Shown here piece by piece: positions 10,234 to 57,817 of a DNA stretch of 64,000 bases. The DNA lies in assembly GCF_002217755.1 (NCBI RefSeq), contig NZ_BCFL01000018.1:124001-188000 (forward strand), in the 5' to 3' direction. Source of the DNA: Streptomyces hyaluromycini. GTDB lineage: Bacteria > Actinomycetota > Actinomycetes > Streptomycetales > Streptomycetaceae. The translations under genes were made by a program, and so were the position numbers. The notes under the pieces are model-generated. The model worked only from the letters and a program-made list of their open reading frames with translations. It was not told where the DNA came from and made no database searches. Position 1 is the first letter of the stretch. Each line of letters starts with the position of its first letter.

Positions 10234-11157
10234 ATGCGAAGTGAGCCGGTGGTCCAGGTGCGGGACCTGGTGAAGCGGTACGGCACCAAGACCGCTGTGA
10301 ACGGCCTCGATCTGACCGCCGAGGCGGGCGTGACCGCCGTACTCGGCCCCAACGGGGCGGGCAAGACGACCACGATCGAGACCTGTGAGGGGTACCGCAG
10401 GCCGGATTCCGGCGCGGTGCGCGTCCTGGGCCTCGATCCGGTACGGCAGTCCGCCGAGCTGCGCCCCAGAGTCGGCGTGATGCTCCAGTCCGGGGGCGTC
10501 TACTCGGGCGCCCGAGCCGACGAGATGCTGCGGCACGTGGCGAAGCTGCACGCGCATCCGCTGGACGTGGACGCGCTGATGGAGCGGCTGGGCCTCGGCA
10601 GCTGCGGCCGGACGTCGTACCGCCGCCTCTCCGGCGGCCAGCAGCAGCGCCTCGCGCTCGCCATGGCCGTGGTCGGACGCCCGGAACTGGTCTTCCTCGA
10701 CGAGCCGACGGCAGGCCTCGACCCCCAGGCCCGCCGGGCCACCTGGGACCTCGTCCGGGACCTGCGCACCGACGGCGTCTCGGTCATCCTCACCACGCAC
10801 TACATGGAGGAGGCCGAGCAGCTCGCCGACGACGTCGCCATCATCGACGCCGGCCGGGTGATCGCCAAGGGCTCCCCCGAGGAGCTGTGCAAGGGCGGCG
10901 CCGAGAACACCCTGCGGTTCACCGGCCGCCCCGGCCTCGACGTCGGCTCGCTCCTCAAGGCGCTGCCGGCCGACTCCACGGCCGCCGAGCTGACCCCGGG
11001 CTCCTACCGGGTCATCGGCAAGGTCAACCCGCAGCTGCTGGCGACGGTCACCTCGTGGTGCGCCCAGCACGGCGTGATGCCCGACCGCATCTCGGTGGAA
11101 CGGCACACGCTGGAGGACGTCTTTCTGGAGCTCACAGGCAAGGAGCTGCGCTCATGA
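10234..11157 (+). CDS. ABC exporter ATP-binding protein (DrrA/CcmA type)
   Basis: A 307-residue ATPase of an ABC-2 type exporter. Walker A is GPNGAGKTTTIE (about residue 39), the signature is RRLSGGQQQRLALAMA, and Walker B is LVFLDEPTAGLDPQARR, followed by TTHYMEEAEQLADDVAIIDAG. The C-terminal part carries the usual extension of this group and ends VFLELTGKELRS. A TAGACT hexamer 8 nt before the ATG suggests a nearly leaderless transcript. Its stop overlaps a new ATG (ATGA at 11154), but the downstream reading frame is not the permease, because the junction is repeated. Substrate unknown. Confidence 0.92.
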   Translation: MRSEPVVQVRDLVKRYGTKTAVNGLDLTAEAGVTAVLGPNGAGKTTTIETCEGYRRPDSGAVRVLGLDPVRQSAELRPRVGVMLQSGGVYSGARADEMLRHVAKLHAHPLDVDALMERLGLGSCGRTSYRRLSGGQQQRLALAMAVVGRPELVFLDEPTAGLDPQARRATWDLVRDLRTDGVSVILTTHYMEEAEQLADDVAIIDAGRVIAKGSPEELCKGGAENTLRFTGRPGLDVGSLLKALPADSTAAELTPGSYRVIGKVNPQLLATVTSWCAQHGVMPDRISVERHTLEDVFLELTGKELRS

Positions 11158-11249
11158 TTCCGGCCCGCACATGGATCGGCTGGGGGTCCGGGGGTTATCC
11201 CCCGGGAAGGCACAGCCTGGAACTCACAGGCAAGGAGCTGCGCTCATGA
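11154..11249 (+). other. 31-codon micro-ORF generated by the junction repeat, copy 1
   Basis: It opens at the ATG overlapping the ATPase stop, starts MIPARTWIGWGSGG and ends LELTGKELRS, which is the ATPase tail read again in frame. Its own TGA overlaps the next ATG. Because 92 is not a multiple of three, the ATPase frame is not continued. It is more likely a relay for coupled translation than a functional peptide. Confidence 0.5.
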
Positions 11250-11341
11250 TTCCGGCCCGCACATGGATCGGCTGGGGGTCCGGGGGTTATCCCCCGGGAG
11301 GGCACAGCCTGGAACTCACAGGCAAGGAGCTGCGCTCATGA
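11246..11341 (+). other. 31-codon micro-ORF generated by the junction repeat, copy 2
   Basis: Same as the first micro-ORF with one residue changed (PPGGHS instead of PPGRHS). Its TGA overlaps the ATG of the permease at 11338, so ribosomes could pass from ATPase to permease through two short coupled frames. Confidence 0.5.
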
Positions 11342-12120
11342 CCACCGCGACCGACACCGGCACCGGCACCTTCACCCCCCGGCCGGGTGCCGCCCCGCTC
11401 CCCCGCATGATCGCGGCGCAGGCGGCCCTGGAGACCAGGATGCTGCTCCGCAACGGCGAGCAGCTGCTGCTGACGGTGGTGATCCCGACGCTCATCCTCG
11501 TGCTCTTCAGCTCGGTGGACGTCGTCGACACGGGATCCGGCAAGTCGGTCGACTTCCTGGCCCCCGGCGTCCTGGCCCTCGCCGTCATGTCGACGGCCTT
11601 CACCGGCCAGGCCATCGCGACCGGCTTCGAACGCCGCTACGGAGTCCTCAAGCGCCTCGCCTCCTCCCCGCTCCCCCGCTGGGCCCTGATGACGGCCAAG
11701 ACCGCGTCGGTCCTGGTCACGGAGGTCCTCCAGGTGATCCTCCTGACGGTGATCGCCCTCGCCCTCGGCTGGTCCCCGCACGGCAACCCCCTCGCGGTCC
11801 TGCTCCTCCTGGTCCTCGGCACGGCCGCCTTCTCCGGCCTCGGCCTCCTGATGGCGGGCACCCTCAAGGCGGAGGCGACTCTGGCCGCCGCCAACCTGGT
11901 GTTCCTGCTGCTGCTCGTGGGCGGCGGGGTCATCGTCCCGCTGGACAAGTTCGGCGGGGCCCAGTCCGTTCTCGGCCTGCTCCCGATTTCCGCACTGTCG
12001 GACGGCCTGCGGGACGTGCTGCAGCACGGGGCGGGGATGCCTTGGGGAGACCTGGGGATTCTGGCGGTGTGGGCTGTGGTGGGGCTGGGGGCGGCCGGGA
12101 AGTTCTTCCGCTGGGAGTAA
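11338..12120 (+). CDS. ABC-2 type exporter permease (DrrB type)
   Basis: A 260-residue membrane protein with about six hydrophobic segments, for example LLLTVVIPTLILVLF, FLAPGVLALAVMSTAFTGQ and VLQVILLTVIALALGW. The family motif GFERRYGVLKRLASSPLPRWALM is present, and it ends DLGILAVWAVVGLGAAGKFFRWE. It pairs with the ATPase just upstream as an export system of unknown cargo. The start ATG overlaps the stop of the second micro-ORF. The AAGGAGCTGCG inside the repeated ATPase tail acts as its ribosome site. Confidence 0.9.
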   Translation: MTTATDTGTGTFTPRPGAAPLPRMIAAQAALETRMLLRNGEQLLLTVVIPTLILVLFSSVDVVDTGSGKSVDFLAPGVLALAVMSTAFTGQAIATGFERRYGVLKRLASSPLPRWALMTAKTASVLVTEVLQVILLTVIALALGWSPHGNPLAVLLLLVLGTAAFSGLGLLMAGTLKAEATLAAANLVFLLLLVGGGVIVPLDKFGGAQSVLGLLPISALSDGLRDVLQHGAGMPWGDLGILAVWAVVGLGAAGKFFRWE

Positions 12121-40073: not shown

Positions 40074-40180
40074 GGATCGATGGTCGTTTCACACCGTTTT
40101 GTCACGGAATGCCGACCGGTTTTTACCGCCCTTTCACTCGTTCGTGAGCGGGTCGGCTCACATGTCGAGTGCCGTCGGCG

Positions 40181-43135
40181 TCAGTTGTCGAGTGCTGTCA
40201 ACGCCTTCTTCACCAGAGCGGCACGATCGGCCGCGGAACTGACCTGTTCCAGGCCGAAACCGAGCAGCACGGTGCGGTCGGTGGTGATCGCGCCGTACGT
40301 CTTGAACAGGGCTCCGGTGCGCGTCCAGTCCTTGAGGACGGCCGGGCTGCCCGCGGGCGGTCCGGTCACGCTCCAGGGGCCGAGGGAGGTCTCGAAGCCC
40401 TCGGTCTCGGTGGCCGTGCCGCCCACCACGAGCGAGGCGTCGTCGACGAGGACGCCGTGCCCGCCGGTGCTCGGGTCGGTGATGTAGCCGATGGAGACCT
40501 CGACGGACTTCCCCGCGTAGGCGCTCAGGTCGAAGCTCACCGGCTGCCAGCCCGCCGAGCTGCCGGTGAAGCTGTTCCACGAGCCACTGGTGCCGCTCGC
40601 GGTGCACTGGTTGTCCGCGATGGTCAGGTAGTGCTTGAGCCACGGATGCTCGGCGATCAGGAAGCCGGCCCCGCACTCGCTCGGTACGGTGCTGCTGGTG
40701 GCGCCGCCCTTCTCGGGGAGGGTCGTCCAGTCGTCGGCGCCGACGACGTGCGCCTCGACCACCGCGTGGTCGTAGCCGGGTTCGGTGTCCCACAGCAGCT
40801 TGGCGCTGAGGGTCGGCTGCTGGGACGCGGTGACACCGGTGAGGTCGATGGTGCGGGTGAGGCGCTTGTAGGCGTCGTCGGTGTGGACGGCCGCGGCCAT
40901 GTACGACCCCGAGTACGGCCCGTACGGGTTGACGGTGCCGGCGAACTGGCCCGCGCCCGCGCTGGCGAACTGGGGGTAGGTGCCGGGCGAGAGCTCGTCG
41001 GAGGTGACGGCGTAGGTGCCGGCCTTGTCGAGCGGGTTGGCGGACGTGCCGCTCAGGGCCCCGCTGAAGCCGTCCAGCGTGCCGGAGCCGGCGAAGCCGG
41101 TGGCCCCGGGTGTCGACGTACGGGAGTAGGCGCCCAGGTAGTACTGGCTGAAGTCGTTCGACGGGGTGCCGTCGCCGAGGTTCACGCTGCCGCCGGCCAG
41201 CTCGCCCGCCTCGATCAGCTTGCCGCCCTCGTTGAGGTAGGCGCGCAGCTGGAGCTGGGTGTCGTTGCCGGGACCGCTCGTGCCCGAGTAGTGGACGACG
41301 GTCCTGAAGTGCTTCAGCACGCCGAGCGCGTCGGGCGCGCCCTGGGTGGCGACGTCCCAGACGACCGCCTTGTGCCCGGCCGCCTTCAGCGCGTCGGCGT
41401 AGGTCTGCGCCTGGGTGGCCTTGGCACCCTCCTCGGCGACCACCAGGGTGTCCGCCTTGGGCCGCTCGGCGACGGTGTACGTGAAGTGCGAGCTGGAGAC
41501 CTTCTTGCCGCTCTTCGTCTCACCGGTGAACCACACCTCGACCTTGTCGCCCGGGTCGCCGTCCTTCACCTTGGCCCGGTACTCGTCGAAGTAGAGGTTG
41601 TCGCCGCCGCCGTACGTCTCGCCGCCCTTCCAGGGCTTGAGTGCCCTGTCCAGCGTGCGGCCGCCGTTGACGCGGTACTTGAGCTCCTTGTCGCGGATCG
41701 CCTTGCGGACGACGACGGAGACCTCCTGGTCGGCGCCGCGCGAGTACGACGTGGAGAACGTCGCCGGCGTGAAGTCGGCGGCGCTCAGGCCGACCGAGGA
41801 GCTCGGCTGGTCGGGGTGGGCGGCGGTCTCGGCGACGGAGAGCGCGAAGGGGATGTTCTTCTCGAACTCGTCCTGGATCAGCTTCGCGTCGTCCGGGAAG
41901 TTGAAGACCGACTGGCAGTCGGCGGCGTTCCAGGCGTCGTTCGGGTCGATGTTCGAGGCCGTCTGGCAGGTCGACATCTCGGGGGTGAACATCGCCATGC
42001 CGTTGACGTTCGACGCGTGGCCGTCCGCCTCGCCGTTGGTCGTGTACAGCTCCGAGGAGACCTGCGAGTGGTAGCCGGGGATCGCCGGGTTGTCCGGGGT
42101 GCCGGCGAGCGCCTTGTAGAGGACGTCGTCCGGGGTCGGGGTGGCCACCTGCCAGCCGACGCCGTAGAGGAGGAGTTCGGCGGCGGAGTGGTAGTTGATG
42201 CCGTACGTGAACCCGATCCGCTTCTCGAAGTCGTCCAGCGCCCTGGTCTCGGGCTCGGACTCGGGGCTCGCGCCGCGGTAGGTCTCGCTGGTGGGGTTGG
42301 GGGACGAACCCTCGTCGTCGTAGCCCCACTTGTAGCCGAAGTTGCGGTTGAGGTCGACGCCGTCACCCGTGCTGATGACACCGTCGCCGTTGACGTCCCG
42401 CAGGTTCTTGCGCCACAGGCGGGTGTCGGAGTTCTGGAAGGTGTAGTCGTAGCCGTCGGGGTTGGCGGACAGCACGAACCACAGCTCGGTGGAGTCGACG
42501 ATCTTCTTGATGCGCTTGTCGGTGCTGTAGTTGTCCAGGTAGTAGTGCATCAGCCGGCGGGTCATCTCCGGCGTGATCCATTCGCGTGCGTGCTGGTTGG
42601 ACAGATACAGCACGGAGGGCTTGGAGCCGTCCTTCGACTTCTTCGCGCCCTTGGTCAGTTTGAGCGCGAGGATGTCCTGGCCGCCGACGGTCTTGCCGAT
42701 GGACTCCACCTTGGTCAGACCGGGGTTGGCCTGCGCGGTCGCGAGGATCTCCTGTTCGAGCCCGCCGCTGCCGCTGTACGGGCGGAACACGCCCTGGGAG
42801 GCGTTCTCGACCCGCGCCTCGGCCTTGGCCGACACCGTGTGCTCGGTGAGGCCGACGCCCTGCTTCTCCAGCTTCTTCGCCTGCTGGTCGGTGAGGTACA
42901 GCTCGACTTCGGTCTTGCCGGATCCGGTGACCTGGTCGCCGAGTTCATGGCCGTCCTGCCCGGCTTCGAGCAGGAGGGGAATCTGTTTCTTGGTGACGTC
43001 GGCGTGGAAGACCTTGACCTGGTCGGGGTCGGGTTTCGGGGAACTCCCGGTCTGCGCCTGCGCCATGGGTGCGAGTGCGGCTCCGCCGATCAGGAGCGCG
43101 CCGACAGCGAGGATCGATCTCGCTCTGTGTCTCAT
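40181..43135 (-). CDS. Large secreted zinc carboxypeptidase (peptidase M14) with C-terminal extra domains
   Basis: A 984-residue protein with a Sec signal peptide (MRHRARSILAVGALLIGGAA, cleavage near AQAQ). The M14 domain has the zinc pair in NQHAREWITPEM (His182, Glu185), substrate Arg/Asn motif DLNRNFGYKWG, and third zinc ligand in INYHSAAELL (His316). The likely catalytic Glu is in FALSVAETAAHPDQP. Residues from about 450 on are beta-rich and include a stretch resembling immune-inhibitor-A type proteases (YDHAVVEAHVVGADDWTTLP and HGVLVDDASLVVGG). It probably trims C-terminal residues from extracellular peptides. ATG 43135 follows AGGGGGG. Confidence 0.88.
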   Translation of the reverse strand: MRHRARSILAVGALLIGGAALAPMAQAQTGSSPKPDPDQVKVFHADVTKKQIPLLLEAGQDGHELGDQVTGSGKTEVELYLTDQQAKKLEKQGVGLTEHTVSAKAEARVENASQGVFRPYSGSGGLEQEILATAQANPGLTKVESIGKTVGGQDILALKLTKGAKKSKDGSKPSVLYLSNQHAREWITPEMTRRLMHYYLDNYSTDKRIKKIVDSTELWFVLSANPDGYDYTFQNSDTRLWRKNLRDVNGDGVISTGDGVDLNRNFGYKWGYDDEGSSPNPTSETYRGASPESEPETRALDDFEKRIGFTYGINYHSAAELLLYGVGWQVATPTPDDVLYKALAGTPDNPAIPGYHSQVSSELYTTNGEADGHASNVNGMAMFTPEMSTCQTASNIDPNDAWNAADCQSVFNFPDDAKLIQDEFEKNIPFALSVAETAAHPDQPSSSVGLSAADFTPATFSTSYSRGADQEVSVVVRKAIRDKELKYRVNGGRTLDRALKPWKGGETYGGGDNLYFDEYRAKVKDGDPGDKVEVWFTGETKSGKKVSSSHFTYTVAERPKADTLVVAEEGAKATQAQTYADALKAAGHKAVVWDVATQGAPDALGVLKHFRTVVHYSGTSGPGNDTQLQLRAYLNEGGKLIEAGELAGGSVNLGDGTPSNDFSQYYLGAYSRTSTPGATGFAGSGTLDGFSGALSGTSANPLDKAGTYAVTSDELSPGTYPQFASAGAGQFAGTVNPYGPYSGSYMAAAVHTDDAYKRLTRTIDLTGVTASQQPTLSAKLLWDTEPGYDHAVVEAHVVGADDWTTLPEKGGATSSTVPSECGAGFLIAEHPWLKHYLTIADNQCTASGTSGSWNSFTGSSAGWQPVSFDLSAYAGKSVEVSIGYITDPSTGGHGVLVDDASLVVGGTATETEGFETSLGPWSVTGPPAGSPAVLKDWTRTGALFKTYGAITTDRTVLLGFGLEQVSSAADRAALVKKALTALDN

Positions 43136-57092: not shown

Positions 57093-57749
57093 ATGACGTA
57101 CAGCGGAGAGGTGACGGTCGGCGGACCGGCGGACGTGCACGAGCTCAAGGACCTGATGATCACCAAGATCGCGGTCGGGCCTATGGACAACAACGCCTAT
57201 CTGCTGCGCTGCCGCGCCACCGACGAGCAACTGCTGATCGACGCGGCCAACGACGCGGAGACGCTCCTCGGCATGATCGGTGACGACGGCATCGCGTCCG
57301 TCGTCACCACCCATCAGCACGGCGACCACTGGCAGGCGCTGGCCGAGGTCGTCGCCGCCACCGGCGCGCGGACGTACGCGGGCCGGGAGGACGCCCCGGG
57401 CATCCCCGTCACCACCGACGTCCTCGTCGGCGACGGCGACGTGATCCGGGTCGGCCGTGTCGAACTGACCGCCCGCCATCTGGTCGGCCACACCCCGGGC
57501 TCCATCGCCCTGGTCTACGACGACCCGCACGGTCATCCGCACGTCTTCACCGGGGACTGCCTCTTCCCGGGCGGTGTCGGCAACACGCGCAAGGACCCGA
57601 AGGCCTTCGCCAGCCTGATCCACGACGTGGAGACGAGGATCTTCGACGTCCTGCCGGACGAGACCTGGGTGTACCCGGGGCACGGCAACGACACCACGCT
57701 GGGCACGGAGCGCCCGCACCTGCCGGAGTGGCACGCGCGCGGGTGGTGA
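57093..57749 (+). CDS. MBL-fold hydrolase (glyoxalase II-like)
   Basis: A 218-residue metallo-beta-lactamase fold protein. The metal motif HxHxDH is in VTTHQHGDHWQAL (about residue 71-76). Further ligands are in HLVGHTPGSIALVY, FTGDCLFPGGVGNT and YPGHGNDTTLG. The pattern resembles hydroxyacylglutathione hydrolase-type thioesterases, which in actinobacteria may act on mycothiol esters. That fits its position after the mycothiol-type isomerase, but the substrate is inferred. Confidence 0.86.
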   Translation: MTYSGEVTVGGPADVHELKDLMITKIAVGPMDNNAYLLRCRATDEQLLIDAANDAETLLGMIGDDGIASVVTTHQHGDHWQALAEVVAATGARTYAGREDAPGIPVTTDVLVGDGDVIRVGRVELTARHLVGHTPGSIALVYDDPHGHPHVFTGDCLFPGGVGNTRKDPKAFASLIHDVETRIFDVLPDETWVYPGHGNDTTLGTERPHLPEWHARGW

Positions 57750-57791
57750 GCGCGGGCGCGGGAGGTGAACGCAGCCGCGGGTGGTGAGGGC

Positions 57792-57817
57792 GGGCGCGCG
57801 TTCCTTCACGCGCGCCC
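57792..57817 (+). terminator. Terminator after the MBL gene
   Basis: A 10-bp perfect stem (GGGCGCGCGT / ACGCGCGCCC) with a TCCTTC loop, 42 bp after the stop. The remaining 260 bp up to the importer genes contain no gene; a TTGACC at 58042-58047 is a possible -35 for the importer. Confidence 0.75.

Follow-up and report, generated by a model that had tools for sequence, protein, structure and literature searches.

A dispersed hairpin element as the probable source of a tandem array at an ABC transporter gene junction in Streptomyces hyaluromycini

Non-LTR retrotransposons and SINEs have a constant 3' end, a nick motif on one side only and target duplications of variable length; transposases usually leave short target duplications. 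Mycobacterial interspersed repetitive units (MIRUs) were reportedly described by Supply et al. in 1997. They are described as small dispersed repeats, 40-100 bp long, which often form tandem arrays of varying copy number (PMC12548453, PMC2734929), and also as apparently mobile units that insert at start codons and carry an internal ORF coupled at -4 nt (PMC12548453). For most of the bacterial MITE-like repeats, such as Correia, RUP, ERIC and RPE, the listed features are TA ends, terminal inverted repeats and a duplicated target (PMC2229807, Table 1). Here we describe an array in a 64,000-nucleotide stretch of S. hyaluromycini DNA (the window), at the point where an ABC transporter ATPase gene meets a permease gene. 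It probably reflects a small hairpin element, dispersed in the Streptomycetaceae and here called E, that entered the end of the ATPase gene at TT^C, together with a copied gene end that would keep the coupling.

The array at the ATPase/permease junction

Tandem Repeats Finder reports an array spanning 11125-11341, with a period of 92, 2.4 copies and 98% matches. Two full copies, at 11125-11216 and at 11217-11308, have two mismatches between them and are followed by a 33-bp partial copy (11309-11341); in the phase that starts at 11131, the full copies differ at one base only. A sequence-only reading had proposed two full copies with one base change and a partial copy in 92-bp steps, and both the repeat search and the alignment of the copies agree with it. 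The features are as follows.

10234-11157, + strand: ABC transporter ATPase gene, DrrA-like (ORF); its 3' end supplies the host part of the repeat
11125-11157, + strand: H1, first 33-bp copy of the ATPase end; AAGGAG at 11140-11145, ATGA at 11154-11157
11154-11249, + strand: micro-ORF 1, 31 codons plus TGA; 4-nt overlap with the ATPase stop and with the next start
11158-11177, + strand: L1, 20-nt stretch separating the ATPase stop from the core; similar in other array-bearing species
11178-11216, + strand: E1, hairpin element core, copy 1 (core search match G000:C17:135178-135216)
11217-11249, + strand: H2, ATPase end, copy 2; AAGGAG at 11232-11237, ATGA at 11246-11249
11246-11341, + strand: micro-ORF 2, 31 codons plus TGA; 4-nt overlap with the permease start
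11270-11308, + strand: E2, hairpin element core, copy 2 (core search match G000:C17:135270-135308)
11309-11341, + strand: H3, ATPase end, copy 3, bearing the permease start codon; AAGGAG at 11324-11329
11338-12120, + strand: ABC transporter permease gene, DrrB-like, assigned from its sequence; the frame also lies within an ORF at 11263-12120

The best NCBIfam match of the ATPase is TIGR01188 (drrA) and that of the permease is TIGR00025, each under its cut-off. The 4-nt ATGA overlaps lie at 11154, 11246 and 11338, the last containing the permease ATG, and they chain the two micro-ORFs to each other and to the permease just as the earlier reading had it. In each 33-bp end copy, AAGGAG, which we take to be a Shine-Dalgarno-like sequence, lies eight bases 5' of the ATG. 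Because AAGGAG and ATG are copied together in each of these ends, all starts of the chain have an identical local context. An ATG at 11263, within unit 2, is in the permease frame; a permease extended from it by 25 residues is possible. The predicted fold of the 39-nt core has an energy of -21.9 kcal/mol (z -2.46), in line with the spacer hairpin noted before, and the 217-nt array as a whole is just modestly more stable than its shuffles (z -1.57). An Rfam search of 10900-11700 gave no match. Two other short tandem arrays lie in the window, at 40152-40199 (23-bp units) and at 57737-57798 (19-bp units).

An assembly artefact is an unlikely source of the array, because one to three units occupy the same junction in other assemblies, including a one-contig genome (G293, locus L050), and because the two copies here carry substitutions relative to each other.

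The hairpin element and its insertion sites

The core of the spacer is about 39 bp long, is GC-rich and reads GGCYGGGGGTCCGGGGGTYNYYCCCCGG..A.RCRCAGC, which is too short to encode an enzyme. In its predicted fold, GCTG near the left end pairs with the CAGC of the right end. One GCTG/CAGC pair is C-A in 65 of 89 distinct cores, a column count in which conservation is partly built in, since the search pattern fixes many positions. Elsewhere in the S. hyaluromycini genome, the core is again found in tandem, flanked by copies of other genes' own 3' ends:

contig C45: TldD/TldE junction, period 86
contig C15: end of a GntR-type regulator gene, period 90, three cores
contig C23: end of a KdpE-like regulator gene, period 87

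With up to two mismatches allowed, the core occurs in 21 of 61 genomes of the genus (a reversed control pattern gave 0 matches). It occurs in 15 of 121 genomes, from 4 of 17 genera, in a Streptomycetaceae sample; a fifth genus (G528) has E by a KdpE pattern, which matched 2 of the 121. In a sample of the class, 10 of 22 genomes of the genus and 0 of 224 genomes outside it carry the core. No exact-pattern match was found in viral contigs, and no blastn match in plasmids, where the low-complexity filter could mask a query of this kind. A literature search, covering few subscription journals, found no published description of the element. A tandem-pattern search, whose reversed control matched 2 of 295 genomes (G087, G096), also picked up an unrelated abundant repeat (L043, L055, L068, L070, L071) and short G-rich repeats (L051, L060). 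At L043, L068, L070 and L071, the match is to an unrelated short repeat family, ATCCAGCCCCGCCGGCGTTTGAGG..GGGGTCCGGGGGC.., and a MoaC-like match (L008/L017) was rejected as a chance match within a coding start.

The sequence-only reading took the array for a triplicated junction. The repetition stands, but plain triplication does not, the spacer core being a dispersed element found at more than 12 unrelated gene ends. A tandem duplication of the junction made by slippage, with an old local sequence as spacer and no mobile element, would account for head-to-tail copies and near-identical units, and slippage or unequal crossing-over may well alter the number of units later. As the origin of the array, however, it is extremely improbable: the core is common to unrelated gene ends with different host repeats, and the array ends in the host copy H3, which duplication of H and E alone does not give.

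How does E enter a gene end? We listed 86 core sites, a few of which are unrelated G-rich repeats. Where the flanking repeats are clear, the right repeat mostly starts within one to two bases of the core's CAG, and the left boundary is variable. Recognisable target duplications measure 31-70 bp: 33 bp here and at C45 (TldD/TldE), 31 bp at C15 (GntR), 51 bp without mismatches at L235, 57 bp at L191, 67 bp without mismatches at L240 and 70 bp at L184. By hand count, the duplicated stretch starts at TT^C in 13 of 18 independent targets, all of these calls having a one-base ambiguity, as the last base of the core is C or T. Of all positions in the window, 1.0% are TTC, and the binomial chance, computed for 13 of 19, is about 4e-22. 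The 13 are an ABC ATPase, GntR, a KdpE-like regulator, a sugar permease, EctD, proline dehydrogenase, DnaJ, a GH25 lysozyme, cobalamin adenosyltransferase, a MurA/EPSP-like gene, FecCD and the unassigned L045 and L052. The others are AT^C (TldD and a PD-(D/E)XK gene), TA^C (a tRNA-Cys end), TA^A (L059/L064) and L044, where the start of the duplicated stretch is ambiguous. Left out of the count were L046 (an N run), L061 and L252 (without a clear right repeat), L066, L202, L232 and L247 (ambiguous) and copies that lack a flanking repeat. Genes were named with Pfam, NCBIfam and ARAGORN, several of the NCBIfam matches being under cut-off. At the present locus, the host copy begins at TT^C about 30 bp upstream of the stop.

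At named protein genes, the core has the same orientation as the gene that supplied the copied end; the orientation check covered the core's strand only and may miss antisense cases. Target duplication is either not universal or has been lost, because several core copies have no flanking direct repeat (L183, L186, L194, L199, L206, L209, L210, L211). Some repeat-free copies seemingly sit at the same place in two genomes (L183/L194, L199/L241). At L058 (1455-1695, - strand), units derive from a tRNA-Cys 3' end, and ARAGORN calls two overlapping tRNA-Gly genes beside the tRNA-Cys, both probably spurious.

Nick-primed (target-primed, SINE-like) copying, in which one strand is nicked at TT^C, synthesis begins at E's constant 3' end and a second nick, made later and at no fixed position, gives duplications of varying length, would explain a constant right end, a motif on one side only, duplications as long and, at L235 and L240, as perfect as those above, and the sense orientation at named gene ends. 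Against it, E shows no association with families of reverse transcriptase (RVT_1 in 9 of the 21 E-bearing genomes and 15 of the 40 others, p = 0.78) or of Y1 transposase (7 of 21 and 8 of 40, p = 0.35), and most insertions look old, so that their lengths may have changed since. If the insertions are old, a present-day enzyme would not be required. We regard such copying as rather unlikely.

Reading frame, gain and loss

We compared 113 ATPase/permease loci, 105 of them distinct, made up of the best 80 of 551 relatives (named species) plus 30 plus 3. Across related Streptomyces, the junction carries zero to three units depending on the species, and the micro-ORF chain is in frame. The ancestral junction was probably a simple ATPase-DTGA-permease overlap, as had been supposed from the present sequence: among the 79 insert-free loci of this set, 78 have the DTGA overlap and the remaining one is N-masked. 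In the other 34 loci, which hold units or a remnant, the overlap chain is unbroken in every case (34/34), in 32 through a 4-nt DTGA and in two (L082, L105) through TGATG; the present array (L152) is among those computed as unbroken. L105 may be ordinary N-terminal variation, and the remnant L087 opens directly into the permease.

The overlap chain is kept in other arrays as well: at TldD/TldE (23 of 23), at the sugar permease (6 of 6), at FecCD (L057, 1 of 1) and in another four ATPase arrays (L239, L242, L244, L248). A TldD/TldE pattern with free gap lengths matched 37 units, spread over 32 of 246 genomes. Their lengths, derived by hand from coordinates, are 83, 86, 89, 92, 95 and 101, and 37 of 37 equal 2 mod 3, the species being related and the arrays thus not independent trials of the frame rule. 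The 53 distinct spacer segments have 0 in-frame stops, vs 5.8 after shuffling, and 1 and 2 stops in the other two frames. The arrays of three species (L073, L085, L126) share a 24-bp insertion within the unit hairpin, with a period of 116 and the micro-ORF frame kept.

Could this agreement be chance plus shared descent, in a selfish or neutral element under no coupling constraint? The ATPase/permease units do share descent (their L stretches have a mean identity of 0.63), and many alleles then represent few events. We nevertheless hold it to be very unlikely. Unit lengths differ and yet agree at four coupled junctions, where 15 of 16 locus-length combinations are 2 mod 3, vs 5 of 16 uncoupled ones (p = 6e-4; the lists were entered by hand, with loci ending in CTGA, TAG or tRNA). 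Moreover, at L239 a 90-bp and an 89-bp unit jointly restore the permease overlap by fusing two micro-ORFs to 60 codons.

Among the best 80 of 551 relatives, all named species, 24 carry whole units (three cores in 1, two in 6, one in 17) and 56 have no array. On a tree from flanking coding DNA, presence changed at least 18 times over these 80 species, in an analysis that counted L135 and L082 as two units, although each has one core. The 20-nt L stretches resemble each other across species, with the mean identity given above over 27 arrays, and units are 96-100% identical inside arrays vs 83% between species; both comparisons exclude L085, L103 and L125 owing to the pattern used. The likeness of the L stretches points to a shared old insertion with many losses, or to interspecies exchange, rather than to many fresh insertions, and the insertion at the present locus looks old. 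The higher identity within arrays suggests that they have been homogenised or re-amplified in individual lineages, for which the direct repeats of about 33 bp would be an obvious substrate. The idea that the L stretch is a drifted permease start was rejected (identity 0.36 vs 0.31 shuffled).

A selected regulatory device, in which hairpins and reinitiation steps lower permease output relative to the ATPase, would be in keeping with the stable predicted hairpin of every unit and with chains of one to three micro-ORFs held in frame. The patchy presence, with the array missing from 56 of those 80 species, speaks against it, as do the E copies at uncoupled gene ends and at the tRNA-Cys end, where such tuning cannot apply. 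We therefore consider it quite unlikely.

Proposed explanation and comparison with known element families

The most economical reading is a mobile mini-element that is tolerated, since the ATPase tail, the AAGGAG and the ATGA hand-over are all restored by the copied end. E would enter the 3' end of the ATPase gene at TT^C, the event duplicating a target stretch. With the module thus copied, ribosomes leaving the ATPase would restart on the micro-ORFs one after another and finally on the permease, and at coupled junctions the only survivors would be frames that preserve the coupling. Recombination between direct repeats would later raise or lower the number of units, as far as precise loss. No peptide function for the micro-ORFs is needed, and an effect on the permease level is possible.

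A single junction with natural alleles of zero, one, two and three coupled micro-ORFs would make chained termination-reinitiation directly measurable, and frame-locked unit lengths offer a test of translational coupling from sequence alone. The Streptomycetaceae, organisms that are easy to engineer, would gain a MIRU-like element family. A one-sided TT^C with a long duplication, unlike the transposase norm, poses a concrete question about how mini-elements move. A bolder reading, which we think improbable, makes E the first recognised member of a class of bacterial SINE-like mini-elements, with nick-primed copying at TT^C, tens of duplicated target bases and insertions nearly invisible to selection. 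If that were true, the class would have been overlooked because duplicated target sequence restores the gene end and, in operons, the ribosome hand-over.

How does E compare with the families introduced above? E has the constant 3' end and variable-length duplications of SINEs, a likeness whose precision is limited by the age of the insertions; a comparison of RVT_1 in 61 genomes found no reverse transcriptase partner for E. Taken together, the long duplication, the constant right end and a TT^C motif on only one side resemble target-primed copying. Like the bacterial MITE-like repeats, E is small, has hairpin potential and is probably non-coding, and some MITE-like ORFs are fused in frame to host genes (PMC2229807). 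E differs from them in lacking TA ends and in duplicating 31-70 bp of target rather than a short fixed length.

MIRUs are the nearest known kind by description. E differs from them in entering at TT^C 5' of a stop rather than at a start codon (as PMC12548453 words it), in the copied host gene end that accompanies it, in a GC-rich hairpin core, and in occurring also at a tRNA end and at gene ends without coupling. Like MIRUs, E is dispersed, short, tandem and variable in number. At coupled junctions, though not at uncoupled ends, it carries an internal ORF with a -4 nt coupling read from the sequence, and the array at the ATPase/permease junction would work as a MIRU does.
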